Positions 57,283 to 63,232 of a stretch of 64,000 nucleotides of DNA are shown one piece after another. The DNA lies in the NCBI GenBank assembly GCA_913043145.1, contig CAJWLP010000003.1, positions 1-64,000 of the forward strand, written 5' to 3'. Within the stretch, counting starts at the first letter, position 1. Every line of letters starts with the position of its first letter. The translations under genes were made by a program, and so were the position numbers. This DNA comes from an uncultured Bacteroidota bacterium (GTDB lineage: Bacteria; Bacteroidota; Bacteroidia; NS11-12g; UBA9320). The notes beneath the pieces were generated by a model. The model was given only the letters and a program-made list of their open reading frames with translations. It was not told the origin of the DNA and searched no databases.

Positions 57283-57585
57283 ATGGAAGATATAACAATC
57301 GAAGAATTAAAGCATAAAGTTGATAATAAAGAAGATTTCTTATTAATTGACGTTCGGGAAGATTGGGAGTATAAAGAGTTTAATATTGATGGAAGACTTA
57401 TTCCATTAGGATCATTACAAGGAGCTATTGACGATTTAGATGATTGGACGGAAAAAGAAGTTGTAGTTCATTGCAAGTCAGGAGGAAGAAGTGCAGCAGC
57501 AAAAGAGTTTATGGTCCGTCAAGGGTTCAAGAATGTTAGAAATCTTCTTGGAGGTATGTTAGCGTGGCAAGCCAAGTACGGTTAA
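57283..57585 (+). CDS. Single-domain rhodanese
   Basis: The 100-residue protein has the rhodanese active-site loop with Cys 64 in VVVHCKSGGRSA and the LIDVREDWEYKEFNI motif. It would carry sulfane sulfur as a persulfide in the cytoplasm. No signal peptide is present. It lies 7 bp after the T9SS cargo gene, and its end overlaps the start of the heptaheme cytochrome gene by 22 bp, so those two are translationally coupled. Confidence 0.92.
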   Translation: MEDITIEELKHKVDNKEDFLLIDVREDWEYKEFNIDGRLIPLGSLQGAIDDLDDWTEKEVVVHCKSGGRSAAAKEFMVRQGFKNVRNLLGGMLAWQAKYG

Positions 57586-59492
57586 AATATCGATTCAAAA
57601 AACTAGTTGTTTTTTTTGGGCTATTTATTATAGTCATTATGTTAGTGTATTGTTCCAATAGTAACAAGTCAACTACTGATTTTTACTATGATAATCATGC
57701 TGATAGTGTTGCTTATGTTGGTATGAAAACATGTGCTACGTGTCATCAAAACAAGCATCAGACATTTGTTCATACTGGTATGGGACTATCATTTGATTCG
57801 GCTACTCGTCAGAAATCTTCAGCATTATTTGGGGCTAATCATCAAGTATATGATTCTTTCTCTGATTTACACTATTATCCTTTCTGGGAAAACGAAAAAT
57901 TATACATCAAAGAATTTAGACTTTTAGAACAAGATACAATTCATCAATTAACAAAAGAGATTAATTATATTGTTGGAAGTGGGCAGCATACTAATTCTCA
58001 CATCATAGAGAAGAATGGATATTTATTTCAAGCACCAATTACTTTTTATGTTCAAAAGCAGAAGTGGGACTTAGCTCCAGGTTTTGAGGGAGGAAATAAC
58101 TCCCGTTTTAGTAGAATATTAAATTCAGAATGTATTAGTTGTCATAATTCAATGCCGGACTTGATAGATAATTCGCAGTTTAAATTTAAGACTATTGGAA
58201 ATGGAATAGATTGTGAGCGATGTCATGGTCCAGGTGAATTGCATGTCTCTCAGCGTTTGAATGGCCAAGGTGTAGATGTCCGAGATGAGATTGATCCTAC
58301 GATTGTTAATCCAAGTAAACTCTCGTGGGATAGACAAATTGACTTGTGTCAGCGTTGTCATCTTCAAGGTTTAAATCTTTTAAAAGATGGTAAGAAATTT
58401 ACAGACTTTAAACCTGGTATGAAGCTGAGCGATATTTTTGAGATTTACTTGCCAGAATTTGAGGGAAACCAATCACAATTTGATATGGCCAATCACTCTC
58501 AACGTTTTCAAATGAGTAAATGCTTCACTTCATCAAATACATCAGATTTGAAGTTCACCTGTATATCCTGTCACAATCCTCATGTGAGTGTTAAAATCAC
58601 AGGTTCTGAAGTATACAATACAGCCTGTTCACAATGTCATACAAAAAAAGATTGTACAACTCCGCCAGAACAGTTAATTAAAGCCAGTCATAATTGTGTT
58701 TCATGTCATATGCCATCCAGTAGTTCTGAGGATATTCCTCACGTAAGTGTTCATGATCATTATATAAGAAAACCTAGTGACAAGAAATACGATGTAAGTC
58801 AAATGCAAAAATTAGTTGGCTTATATGCTGTCAATAATTCTCAGCCTGAAATTGAGCACCAAATACTTGCTTATTTAGAGTATTGGGAAAAATTTGATAA
58901 AAATCCGTTTTACATTAATAAAGCCCGAGAGATGTTATTGATTAATGATTATCCTCATTTATGGTTGAAATATTTCTATCTGAAAGAAGAATATGAAAAG
59001 GTAACTCAATTATCATTTGAATATGGTGAGCTTGATGCTTGGCAGAATTTTATGATGGGGGAGAGCTATGCTAGACTCAATCAATTAAGTCAGGCTATTT
59101 TTTATACAGAAAATGCATATGAATTAGAACCTACAAATCAAATGTTTTCTATACAATTATTAAAGCGATATATTGCTAATGGATCGTTAGATAAGGCCAA
59201 CAAATTTGGTGATAAATTATTGAATGAATTTGGTGATAATGCATCTATTTTAAATAGCCTAGCTAAAATATCAACATTGAAAAAACAATATTTAAATGCT
59301 GAGAAATATGTTAATCAAGCATATCAATTAGATGCTGATGATTTATCGATTTGGGAAACTTATTTTAACTTATATATTCAATTAGGGGATGACAAGAATG
59401 TCCTATATTGGCTTAATAAGATTCAAGAAAAGCAACCTAATTATATTGAATCAAATCAACTTGATGAAATACTAGACAGTCTAAAAGATTAG
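57564..59492 (+). CDS. Heptaheme c-type cytochrome with TPR domain, lipoprotein
   Basis: The 642-residue protein has an N-terminal hydrophobic segment with a possible lipobox LVYC (Cys 30). Seven CxxCH heme sites are seen: CATCH, CISCH, CERCH, CQRCH, CISCH, CSQCH and CVSCH, between about residues 57 and 380. The C-terminal 230 residues are TPR-like helices (SYARLNQLSQAIFYTENAYELEP). Multiheme-plus-TPR proteins of this kind are often annotated as tetratricopeptide or doubled-CxxCH proteins; the electron donor and acceptor are unknown. The start is a GTG at 57564 inside the rhodanese gene; no ATG lies before residue 26. A ferredoxin gene follows 47 bp later. Confidence 0.85.
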   Translation: MASQVRLKYRFKKLVVFFGLFIIVIMLVYCSNSNKSTTDFYYDNHADSVAYVGMKTCATCHQNKHQTFVHTGMGLSFDSATRQKSSALFGANHQVYDSFSDLHYYPFWENEKLYIKEFRLLEQDTIHQLTKEINYIVGSGQHTNSHIIEKNGYLFQAPITFYVQKQKWDLAPGFEGGNNSRFSRILNSECISCHNSMPDLIDNSQFKFKTIGNGIDCERCHGPGELHVSQRLNGQGVDVRDEIDPTIVNPSKLSWDRQIDLCQRCHLQGLNLLKDGKKFTDFKPGMKLSDIFEIYLPEFEGNQSQFDMANHSQRFQMSKCFTSSNTSDLKFTCISCHNPHVSVKITGSEVYNTACSQCHTKKDCTTPPEQLIKASHNCVSCHMPSSSSEDIPHVSVHDHYIRKPSDKKYDVSQMQKLVGLYAVNNSQPEIEHQILAYLEYWEKFDKNPFYINKAREMLLINDYPHLWLKYFYLKEEYEKVTQLSFEYGELDAWQNFMMGESYARLNQLSQAIFYTENAYELEPTNQMFSIQLLKRYIANGSLDKANKFGDKLLNEFGDNASILNSLAKISTLKKQYLNAEKYVNQAYQLDADDLSIWETYFNLYIQLGDDKNVLYWLNKIQEKQPNYIESNQLDEILDSLKD

Positions 59493-59889: not shown

Positions 59890-60588
59890 ATGATTAAGGG
59901 CATTTGTCATCTATCTCAAATCCCTTTGAGAGCAAACCCTAAAAGTAGCTCAGAAATGGTTAGTCAACTCCTTTTTGGTGAGACATACCTAATTATTGAA
60001 CAACGGGAAGAATGGTCGCTTATTCGAATGGATTTTGATGGTTACGAGGGTTGGGTTAGTAAATCTAGTATAAATCTTATTGATTCTTCAGGAATAAATG
60101 CAAAAGACTATATCCAGACAGATTTAGTTTTACATTCTGTCAATAAATTCACAAATCAGCCCTTAATAAGCTCTATTGGGTCAGAATTTACTGATGTAAT
60201 TAATTCAGATAATCGACATAATATTTTAGATCTTGCAAAGCTCTTTTTGGGTACTCCCTATTTATGGGGCGGAAGACATTTTTCTGGTATCGATTGTTCA
60301 GGTTTTGTGCAAGTGGTATATAAATGTATGGCTATTCAGTTGCCTAGAGATGCTTCTCAACAACAAAAAAAAGGTAAACCGATAGCATTTAAAGATTTGT
60401 CTGAAGGAGATTTAGTTTTTTTTGAAAGCAATAATTGTGTCACTCATGTAGGCATATTTATAGCCGATGGACAGATTATCCATTCACATGGAATGGTTCG
60501 TATTGACAAGTTAAATAAGGACGGAATATTTAATTCACAAACGGGTGAGCAATCCCATGTCTATCACTCTAGTAAGCGTTTACGATAA
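59890..60588 (+). CDS. NlpC/P60 cell-wall peptidase with SH3 domain
   Basis: The 232-residue protein has an N-terminal SH3-like domain (about 5-65, IPLRANPKSSSEMVSQLLFGE) and a C-terminal NlpC/P60 domain with Cys 136 in GIDCSGFVQ, His near 188 in VTHVGIFI and a second His in IIHSHGM. Such enzymes cleave gamma-D-Glu-diamino-acid links in peptidoglycan peptides. No signal peptide is visible, so it may act in the cytoplasm on recycled muropeptides. It starts 2 bp after the ferredoxin gene. Confidence 0.9.
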   Translation: MIKGICHLSQIPLRANPKSSSEMVSQLLFGETYLIIEQREEWSLIRMDFDGYEGWVSKSSINLIDSSGINAKDYIQTDLVLHSVNKFTNQPLISSIGSEFTDVINSDNRHNILDLAKLFLGTPYLWGGRHFSGIDCSGFVQVVYKCMAIQLPRDASQQQKKGKPIAFKDLSEGDLVFFESNNCVTHVGIFIADGQIIHSHGMVRIDKLNKDGIFNSQTGEQSHVYHSSKRLR

Positions 60589-60635
60589 AATTTGGGCATT
60601 CCTCAAATTTTAGCCATATTGCACACCAAATTATT

Positions 60636-62255
60636 ATGAGCAAGTCAACAGAGTCTTGGGGGAGTAGAGTAGGTCTTATTTTGGCTATGGCAGGCAATGC
60701 TGTAGGACTAGGTAATTTTCTTCGTTTTCCTGTCAAAGCTGTCGAAAATGGTGGAGGAGCTTTCATCATTCCATACATTATTAGTTTTTTATTGATGGGG
60801 ATTCCTCTTCTGTGGGTTGAATGGAGTATGGGAAGGTACGGTGGATCAAAAGGTGATCACAGTACGCCGTTTATCCTTGATAATATGACTAAAAAGAGTC
60901 TTTGGAAATATTTTGGGGTTTTTGGCATTTTTACAAATATTGGTGTGATGTCCTATTATACTTACATTGAATCATGGACATTGACCTATACAATAAAGTC
61001 GCTAAAAGGAGATTTCTTTGGAATGGATATTGCCAAGGTTGGTCAAGTTTTTGATCAATATGTGGATATCAGTGGAGGAGTCAATATTCCAATTATTGCT
61101 CTTTTAGCTTTTACTGTTACACTTGTCATTAATATATACATATTATCCAAGGGACTGAGTGGTGGAATAGAAAAGGTGGCTAAAATAGCAATGCCTATGC
61201 TCATTACATTTGGTGCTTTTTTAGCTCTCATGGCTTTTTCAATGGGAGATACGGGTAAATGTGCGGATTGCAACTCACATGTAGGCATGGATTTTTTATG
61301 GTCCCCACAATACGATAGTTTATGGAATCCCAAGGTATGGTTAGAAGCTGCCGGACAAATATTCTTTACCCTTTCAGTTGGTATGGGAACGATTGTGTGT
61401 TACTCTTCATATGTTAAAAAGCGAGATGATATTGCTCTTAATGCAATGAGTGCGGGATGGATGAATGGTTTCGTAGAGATTGTACTTGGTGCATCCGTTG
61501 TTATTCCTATCGCAGTAGGGTTTTTAGGACTTGATTGGGTAAAAGAAAACGCTGGATTTATGATGGCTTTCAAGACCATGCCTTATTTGTTTGATCAATG
61601 GGGGCATGTTATCTCAGTTATTGCCGGAGTAGCTTGGTTTGGCTTGTTATTTTTTGCTGGAATTACGTCTTCTCTTGCCATGGGAACACCCTGGATGGGT
61701 TTTGTTCAAGATGAATTTGATTGGTCTCGAAATAAAGCTTCATGGACATTGGGTGTGTTCATATTCTTGTTGGCTCTGCCAACGATTTTCTTTTTTGAAT
61801 ATGGTGTTTTTGATGAATATGATTATTGGACGGGTACCGTTTCTCTTGTAGTCTTTGCCTTAGCAGAAGTGATTTTATTTGCCTGGGTTTTTGGTATGGA
61901 TAAAGGTTGGGATGAAATTAACTATGGTGCTGATATCAAGGTGCCAAAGATTTATAAATTTATTATCAAATGGGTAACTCCACTGTTTATATTGGTTATT
62001 TTTCTTGCCTCATTATTCACGCCAAAAAATAATGATTGGAATAAAGCTATAAATGGAGATTGGGTTCTAGATAAGAGCAGTATTATTGGTAAAATACTCC
62101 ATATTGGAGAGGATGCGAGTTGGATGATAGACGGAAGTTTAACAAATGTATTTTATGTAGATATGTCCCGATTGCTTCTATTGGGTACATTTATTGGTCT
62201 AGCACTTATGGTGAGGCATGCATCCAAATTACGGAAACAAAAATTAAACAAATAA
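60636..62255 (+). CDS. Sodium-dependent NSS (SLC6-type) transporter
   Basis: The 539-residue protein has about 12 membrane spans and the NSS start WGSRVGLILAMAGNAVGLGNFLRFP, where the first helix unwinds to bind sodium and substrate. It would import an amino acid with sodium. The particular amino acid is not readable. It is followed at once by two very small membrane-protein genes that may be accessory subunits. An inverted repeat AAAATTTG/CAAATTTT at 60587-60611 lies just upstream. Confidence 0.93.
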   Translation: MSKSTESWGSRVGLILAMAGNAVGLGNFLRFPVKAVENGGGAFIIPYIISFLLMGIPLLWVEWSMGRYGGSKGDHSTPFILDNMTKKSLWKYFGVFGIFTNIGVMSYYTYIESWTLTYTIKSLKGDFFGMDIAKVGQVFDQYVDISGGVNIPIIALLAFTVTLVINIYILSKGLSGGIEKVAKIAMPMLITFGAFLALMAFSMGDTGKCADCNSHVGMDFLWSPQYDSLWNPKVWLEAAGQIFFTLSVGMGTIVCYSSYVKKRDDIALNAMSAGWMNGFVEIVLGASVVIPIAVGFLGLDWVKENAGFMMAFKTMPYLFDQWGHVISVIAGVAWFGLLFFAGITSSLAMGTPWMGFVQDEFDWSRNKASWTLGVFIFLLALPTIFFFEYGVFDEYDYWTGTVSLVVFALAEVILFAWVFGMDKGWDEINYGADIKVPKIYKFIIKWVTPLFILVIFLASLFTPKNNDWNKAINGDWVLDKSSIIGKILHIGEDASWMIDGSLTNVFYVDMSRLLLLGTFIGLALMVRHASKLRKQKLNK

Positions 62256-62256
62256 T

Positions 62257-62394
62257 ATGAGTAGTTCAGCATTAATAATGATGATAGTTGTTCAAGTGTC
62301 TGTCACTATCATTACAGGGTACTTTTTCTATAAGGTATTAGTAACACCACCAAAATCAGAGCCTGATTCGTATTCCGAAAACGAAGAAGAGTAG
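62257..62394 (+). CDS. Small membrane protein, MetS-like NSS transporter accessory
   Basis: The 45-residue frame starts ATG one base after the NSS transporter stop codon. It has a short Ser-rich head, one membrane span at about 6-29 (LIMMIVVQVSVTIITGYFF) and an acidic tail with Pro, ending SENEEE. The position and form match the small subunits (MetS) that are needed by some NSS transporters such as MetP. The match is by context and shape, not by sequence identity that I can check. Confidence 0.65.
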   Translation: MSSSALIMMIVVQVSVTIITGYFFYKVLVTPPKSEPDSYSENEEE

Positions 62395-62403
62395 CGTCAG
62401 TCT

Positions 62404-62565
62404 ATGTTAATTTTTCAAGCAATAGATAGTGTTCAACGAGCACCAGATGCAACGGGATTATTCTGGGGTATTTCAGAAGTAGTGGTCACTCTTATCGTAT
62501 TTGTAGGGGTGTATTTTATTTTCAAACCTGTGTTTGGAGAGGAAAAGAATAAGAAATCCAAATAA
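62404..62565 (+). CDS. Second small membrane protein behind the NSS transporter
   Basis: The 53-residue frame starts ATG ten bases after the first micro-protein. It has an amphipathic head (residues 1-18), one membrane span at about 24-41 (SEVVVTLIVFVGVYFIF) and a basic tail (EEKNKKSK). It stops 4 bases before the convergent lspA stop. It may be a second subunit of the transporter or a separate small membrane protein. A short coding frame of this kind is less certain than its larger neighbours. Confidence 0.55.
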   Translation: MLIFQAIDSVQRAPDATGLFWGISEVVVTLIVFVGVYFIFKPVFGEEKNKKSK

Positions 62566-62569
62566 TTTC

Positions 62570-63232
62570 TTAGTCAGTGGCTGTTTTTTCTTCAGATTGG
62601 CTTTGCGTAAACAAGTACCTCCTAAAAACAAGAATTGTAAAAACACCAACACTAATAGCCGCATCAGCAATATTAAAAACAGGTCTAAAAAATTGAAAAC
62701 GATTACCACCAATAAATGGTAACCATTCTGGCCAATGAGTGTCTATCAACGGAAAATAAAGCATATCGACCACTTTACCCATAAATAACGGAGCGTAACC
62801 ATCGCCATTGGGTAAAAATTTTGCGACACTGTGATAGGTGCTTTCTTCAAAAAAATAACCATACAGAATAGAGTCAATAATATTTCCAATAGCTCCGGCA
62901 AGTATTAAAGAAATAAGAATAATAGTCGCCGATTTTACTCCCTCTTTGATTAAATTTTGGATATAAATTATGATTACTCCAGATGCAATGATTCGAAATA
63001 AGGTCAGTACAATCTTACCCCATTTTCCACCAAGTGTTAGACCAAAGGCCATGCCTGGGTTTTCTGTGAAATGCAATTCAAACCAATTTGGAAAAATAAT
63101 CGTGCTCTCACCAAGGGAGTATGTCGTTTTGATATGAAATTTCAACCAATGATCGAGCACCAATATGATCATGACAGTCACGATAACATATAAAATTTGT
63201 CTTTTTTGATTGACGTATGAAATTGATTCCAA
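62570..63232 (-). CDS. lspA: Lipoprotein signal peptidase (signal peptidase II)
   Basis: The 220-residue protein has four membrane spans and the catalytic Asp pair: Asp 120 in GNIIDS and Asp 190 in FNIADAAISVG, plus the conserved NPGMAFGL. It cuts lipoprotein signal peptides before the lipidated Cys, and would act on the lipoproteins seen in this window. It is longer than the usual 160-170 residues because of an insertion between the last helices (about 125-180), common in Bacteroidota. The TTG at 63232 is the likely start, as the first ATG is inside the first membrane span. Confidence 0.95.
   Translation of the reverse strand: MESISYVNQKRQILYVIVTVMIILVLDHWLKFHIKTTYSLGESTIIFPNWFELHFTENPGMAFGLTLGGKWGKIVLTLFRIIASGVIIIYIQNLIKEGVKSATIILISLILAGAIGNIIDSILYGYFFEESTYHSVAKFLPNGDGYAPLFMGKVVDMLYFPLIDTHWPEWLPFIGGNRFQFFRPVFNIADAAISVGVFTILVFRRYLFTQSQSEEKTATD

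Follow-up and report, generated by a model that had tools for sequence, protein, structure and literature searches.

A LeuT-like sodium symporter gene followed by a candidate MetS-like small subunit and an order-wide small membrane protein in an uncultured Bacteroidota bacterium

Introduction

LeuT was solved and studied as a single chain, and it serves as the model for the whole SLC6 family, being treated as a one-chain transporter. Short single-span accessory proteins of bacterial transporters or enzymes include KdpF, CydX, and AcrZ. Among NSS transporters, a small subunit is found in the MetPS importer of Corynebacterium glutamicum, in which MetS accompanies MetP. An NSS member made of two subunits is also described for C. 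variabile, with reference to the MetPS publication (PMC3219685).

The locus described here lies in a window of 64,000 nucleotides, i.e., the whole stretch of DNA that was analysed, from an uncultured Bacteroidota bacterium. It is likely to encode a two-part sodium-coupled amino-acid importer, made up of an NSS transporter and the small protein ORF1, with ORF2 behind them as an independent gene for another small membrane protein.

Organisation of the locus

The genome assembly containing the window consists of 86 contigs and is approximately 80% complete. Its closest kin in the named-locus collection are records of uncultured Bacteroidota. The upstream flank, also in relatives, is formed by the gene of an nlpC/P60 protein with SH3-like domains (59890..60588, forward strand; PF00877, 91.4 bits). 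The NSS (SLC6-type) sodium:amino-acid symporter of the LeuT branch, with a length of 539 aa, follows at 60636..62255 on the same strand. One base separates its stop from the start of ORF1 (62257..62394, forward strand, 45 aa), and nine bases separate the stop of ORF1 from the start of ORF2 (62404..62565, forward strand, 53 aa). The convergent gene lspA (62570..63232, reverse strand; NF011369, 262.5 bits) forms the downstream flank. The first-pass annotation had placed frames of 45 and 53 codons behind the NSS gene, filling the gap to lspA, and had assigned one membrane span to each. These coordinates are exact, and ORF1 and ORF2 each contain a single hydrophobic stretch. The tail charges that it gave also apply in the window, the tail of ORF1 being acidic (−5) and that of ORF2 basic (+2). 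Further upstream, the protein encoded at positions 57564-59492 combines CXXCH cytochrome c motifs with TPR repeats, and a homologue of it also occurs near ORF2 in several genera of the order's other family.

The NSS transporter

The transporter is a member of PF00209, scoring 175.8 bits against a gathering cut-off of 27. In a phmmer comparison with solved structures, LeuT entries were the best matches (e.g., 2a65, E = 3e-116), while 4us3 reached only 1e-44. In the alignment with LeuT, the stretches containing its sodium and substrate sites are kept, and so are the residues at its Na+ sites. The dN/dS ratios of the NSS gene are 0.025 and 0.077 in two same-genus sets of seven and four genomes, respectively. 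Across the order, PF00209 exceeds its cut-off in 36 of 108 genomes, including 22 of the 64 high-quality ones. Two NSS relatives, L015:1501-3312 and L013:1501-3372, exceed the window NSS by 65 and 85 residues, respectively, with the extra part placed before the last span. In L015 this part is biotin/lipoyl-like (Pfam Biotin_lipoyl_2, E = 0.0086, below cut-off), and that of L013 is without match.

Both small frames as genes

ORF1 and ORF2 are real genes. In the same sets of seven and four genomes, ORF1 has dN/dS ratios of 0.059 and 0.087, and ORF2 has ratios of 0.127 and 0.179. The gaps between the genes vary within the genus, from 1 to 20 nt before ORF1 and from 3 to 25 nt before ORF2, so that a fixed spacing does not by itself account for the preservation of the frames. 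Both junctions, NSS/ORF1 and ORF1/ORF2, are overlaps in genome G053, as is the second junction in G025. Conservation in relatives was one of the points on which the first-pass annotation had let its proposal depend, and both frames are kept, with dN/dS well below 1 and profile matches in other genomes of the order. The short length of both frames, below the usual gene-length cut-offs, would fit chance open frames. This explanation is refuted by the low dN/dS of both and by the recovery of the family profiles in 36 (ORF1) and 98 (ORF2) of 108 genomes, leaving it practically no probability.

In 32 of 33 ORF1 rows and in 83 of 89 scored ORF2 sequences, positive residues are more numerous behind the span than ahead of it, and the C-termini of both proteins are therefore probably inside. 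In the ORF1 family alignment, the near-fixed residues are A5, M9, V27, and L28. For ORF2, a glutamate is present at the span start in 84 of 90 sequences checked, and a glutamine in most of the others. The idea that the acidic and basic tails might pair did not hold up in relatives: across the 17 ORF1/ORF2 pairs examined, the tail of ORF2 has charges anywhere between +4 and −4, and the acidic EPDSYSEND-like tail of ORF1 is also kept in many loci without ORF2 behind it.

ORF1 and LeuT-like transporters

ORF1 is tied to the NSS transporter by its distribution. Its profile matches 36 of 108 genomes of the order, and in 35 genomes NSS and ORF1 occur together, in every case with ORF1 on a contig that carries NSS (Fisher p = 4e-26 for co-occurrence in the 108 genomes). 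The two exceptions are G018, in which an NSS fragment without ORF1 runs off the contig start, and G034, in which a weak ORF1 match (E = 2.5e-4) occurs without NSS. Some of the genomes searched with profiles A4 and A5 had also contributed sequences to them.

The same arrangement is found in named loci, 78 of which were returned for the window NSS protein; 75 include the NSS end and three do not. A single-span frame of 31-53 aa is present at the NSS end in 74 of the 75, starting between −35 and +66 nt from the NSS stop, and at −4, i.e., with an ATGA overlap, in 41 of them. The sole locus without such a frame (L105) encodes a distant cyanobacterial carrier of 28% identity. According to their labels, the frame-bearing loci include Planctomycetota (L088, L089), Eisenbacteria (L091), and Kapaibacterium (L098), and those recorded under a strain name include Marinoscillum pacificum MRN461 (L079) and Pontibacter sp. 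172403-2 (L101). A small hydrophobic ATG frame is located behind 72 of the 76 long ORFs that overlap the NSS match in the named loci, compared with 4 of 160 other long ORFs serving as the control. The remaining four of the 76, located in L053, L084, and L091, are ORFs other than NSS itself that overlap the match, as in these loci the true NSS stop is followed by the small frame.

A search behind NSS genes in other Bacteroidota, which the first-pass annotation had proposed for the pair of frames, was carried out for the ORF1-type frame on 198 genomes sampled evenly across the phylum and recovered it. This sample contains 28 LeuT-like NSS besides that of the window, with 46-64% identity and E-values below 1e-115, the next matches appearing only from 1e-51. 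A single-span frame lies within about 90 nt behind 24 of these 28. The count includes L323 through its profile match, its span hydrophobicity being 1.45 against a filter value of 1.5. It leaves out L329, where the one frame of 38 aa behind NSS passes the hydrophobicity filter and looks like a chance frame, its sequence not being of the ORF1 type. In L333, the ORF1 match is 294 nt from NSS. No ORF1-type frame was found behind the LeuT-like NSS of L324, L329, and L334, and these three are candidates for carriers that work alone.

In the proposed importer, ORF1 is encoded right behind the transporter, overlapping the NSS gene in many relatives. Its single helix would insert with the N-terminus outside and pack against NSS, and it may stabilise or activate the transporter, by analogy with the action of MetS on MetP. 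Instead of being a structural subunit, ORF1 could be a peptide that is translated in coupling with NSS and assists the assembly of the transporter or regulates it. The small size of ORF1 and the tight coupling, with an ATGA overlap in 41 of 74 named loci, would fit such a role. The conserved helix and the near-fixed residues A5, M9, V27, and L28 resemble MetS-type subunits more than a leader, and similar frames stand behind NSS in Planctomycetota- and Eisenbacteria-labelled loci. Such a role is hence considered quite improbable.

Distribution of ORF2

ORF2 is an order-wide core small membrane protein and is independent of NSS presence. Its profile, which includes distant members, matches 98 of the 108 genomes at E-values of 0.01 or lower, and 62 of the 64 high-quality ones. 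At E up to 1e-3, it occurs in 33 of 36 genomes with NSS versus 63 of 72 without (p = 0.75), where G016 and G491, whose sole match lies above 1e-3, are counted as lacking ORF2. In the rest of the phylum sample (395 genomes), no convincing member was found; many of the profile matches at E-values from 1e-4 to 0.01 fall within long frames. Three candidates for members outside the order (G059, G191, and G388) were rejected. They have Cys-rich tails and are located behind a FeoB-like gene, recognised by eye, and based on this position and appearance they are regarded as FeoB-associated proteins. The weak profile matches L270, L271, and L272 are short, Cys-tailed single-span proteins behind a FeoB-like gene.

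Other origins of ORF2 were also rejected. As a relative of MetS, it would be expected among NF033493 matches, and neither the window ORF2 nor 15 family rows gave one. As a paralogue of ORF1, it reached an hhalign probability of 53.8%, confined to the span, though above 100 column shuffles. Some ORF2 rows matched Pfam weakly (PIGBOS1, with E = 1e-4 for the best of 15 rows), which was attributed to chance similarity of the span. The family was found in neither Pfam nor NCBIfam, the libraries searched, and it adds a small membrane protein that is near-universal in one order.

The neighbours of ORF2 were read in 78 loci, with L270-L272 set aside; names such as M20-type peptidase and scoB-like were assigned from reading the sequences. 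In G019, ORF2 lies straight behind nlpC, at a distance of 30 nt, with no carrier between them. In genus g4, it follows the gene of a protein of about 800 aa, and in several genera of family f2 it is located between an M20-type peptidase gene and a scoB-like gene. In G479, ORF2 stands behind fbp, and NSS and ORF1 are on another contig.

ORF2 beside sodium symporters

In the order, the arrangement NSS-ORF1-ORF2 is kept in 27 of the 33 genomes that hold both NSS and ORF2. The two are apart in the remaining six (G054, G479, G492, G493, G495, and G497). An ORF2-like frame was recognised by eye in only 10 of the 74 named loci where an ORF1-like frame accompanies NSS, and the NSS of these 10 are 75-98% identical to that of the window.

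In the family of the window, the slot between nlpC and ORF2 holds either NSS and ORF1, a sodium:alanine symporter of the AGCS family, which is unrelated to NSS, or nothing (G019). The AGCS symporter occupies the slot in eight genomes (cluster 12), and the one member tested scores 407.8 bits with PF01235. Close relatives with differing slot contents can be compared at positions 59890-62565 of the window and in L195, L198, L209, L210, L218, L220, and L229.

The NSS genes adjoining ORF2 represent at least three lineages on the NSS tree. The first is that of the window, together with G053; the second (G001, G004, G010, and G012) is nested with another family of the class; and the third belongs to genus g14. 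This quick tree contains seven label changes, five of which are forced by supported branches, and one of its labels is doubtful; the label of L058 is probably a chance span match, and the placement of L022 is unsure. The surroundings of NSS-ORF1-ORF2 differ as well, with nlpC and lspA in family f1 and another gene (c7) in g14. In G053, neither nlpC nor lspA is found within 1.5 kb on either side of the three genes. In g14, the order c22-c21-ORF2-c7 is also found in the absence of NSS, and in G459 the NSS gene stands between c21 and ORF2. Any of three explanations could account for the adjacency of ORF2 and symporters, namely one old linkage followed by replacement, a favoured site of insertion, or a functional relation. 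The presence of several NSS lineages and of an AGCS symporter beside ORF2 favours a looser link. A wholly unrelated ORF2 would predict neither the gene order kept in 27 of 33 genomes nor its adjacency to at least three NSS lineages.

The first-pass annotation had considered two tandem small subunits, and with respect to ORF2 this was not confirmed, since ORF2 is present in 63 of 72 genomes without NSS and is separate from NSS in 6 of 33. A three-part transporter, in which ORF1 and ORF2 are both dedicated subunits of NSS, would account for the gene order kept in 27 of 33 genomes, which is shared by three or more NSS lineages and occurs in no fewer than three genomic contexts. The same two counts speak against it, as does the ORF2-like frame in only 10 of 74 named loci, and it is accordingly judged very unlikely.

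A broader relation was proposed in two forms. In the first, sodium symporters with the LeuT fold, among them NSS and AGCS, would generally have ORF2 as a small partner, in trans where the genes are unlinked, and would for this reason settle beside it. Two NSS lineages and AGCS are located directly upstream of ORF2 at one locus in one genus, and a third NSS lineage is located upstream of it elsewhere, in genus g14. Many genera, however, have ORF2 between opposite-strand genes (M20-type peptidase and scoB-like), others have it beside fbp or an rRNA-methyltransferase-like gene, and one ancestral linkage with in-place replacement explains part of the pattern. A general partner is considered unlikely. 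The second form, in which ORF2 would be a promiscuous subunit for the whole class of LeuT-fold sodium symporters and would complete three-part transporters composed of a carrier, a dedicated ORF1, and the shared ORF2, with carriers of different families repeatedly moving in beside it on account of working with it, is likewise regarded as unlikely.

In the preferred reading of a two-part importer followed by an independent gene, ORF2 is a separate core protein of the order with a membrane role of its own. It probably shares a transcript with NSS and ORF1 here, since these two genes occupy, as a cassette, the space that separates nlpC from ORF2.

Comparison with known systems

Neither ORF1 nor ORF2 of the window matches a Pfam or NCBIfam family above cut-off, and ORF1 has no Pfam match, PF16951 included. 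With NF033493, the window ORF1 scores 11.5 bits, below the curated cut-off of 25. Of 33 rows of the ORF1 family, 14 gave weak NF033493 matches (best E = 0.0072) and one matched PF16951 (E = 0.065). In the phylum sample, NF033493 has matches in 14 of 198 genomes, five of them over cut-off. In each of the ten matched loci that were read, the small frame lies behind an NSS of another type, 487-500 aa long, and contains a WGG motif, aligned as W17, G18, and G19 in all eight A6 rows. An hhalign comparison of ORF1 with the profile of these Bacteroidota MetS-type frames gave a probability of 94.9%, ungapped from Met1 and above 100 column shuffles. ORF2, which is presumably unrelated, reached 82.3% with the same profile, also above its 100 shuffles, which shows that the span alone provides much of the ORF1-MetS score. 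Hence, ORF1 is proposed to work like MetS, and common descent is left aside.

The suggestion of MetS-like small subunits thus stands for ORF1, through co-occurrence and position, albeit under the curated MetS cut-off, and falls for ORF2, a core gene independent of NSS. Among the MetPS-mentioning papers listed in literature searches, with most subscription papers outside their scope, none appeared to describe ORF2 or an ORF1-like partner of the LeuT branch. If the close relatives of LeuT nearly all carry a partner of 31-55 aa, the MetPS-type small subunit would be much wider among bacterial NSS. It would extend across Bacteroidota and loci labelled Planctomycetota and Eisenbacteria, and it would exist in two or more sequence types, paired with two branches of carriers.

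KdpF, CydX, and AcrZ resemble ORF1 and ORF2 only in general, as short, single-span proteins. LeuT from Aquifex aeolicus is the nearest solved relative of the window NSS. The latter has a small partner gene, whereas LeuT was studied as one chain. The closest parallel to ORF1 is MetS of the MetPS importer of C. glutamicum (NF033493, PF16951), which is likewise short and encoded directly behind an NSS gene. Both have one span starting near Met1. ORF1 differs from MetS-type frames in lacking the WGG motif, the window ORF1 having T-I-I at this position, and in its partner, as it accompanies a LeuT-like NSS, while the WGG-type frames accompany the NSS type of 487-500 aa. The description of ORF1 as a MetS-like yet distinct small subunit of the LeuT branch, of a type outside the family models searched, is well supported by its co-occurrence with NSS and its position.
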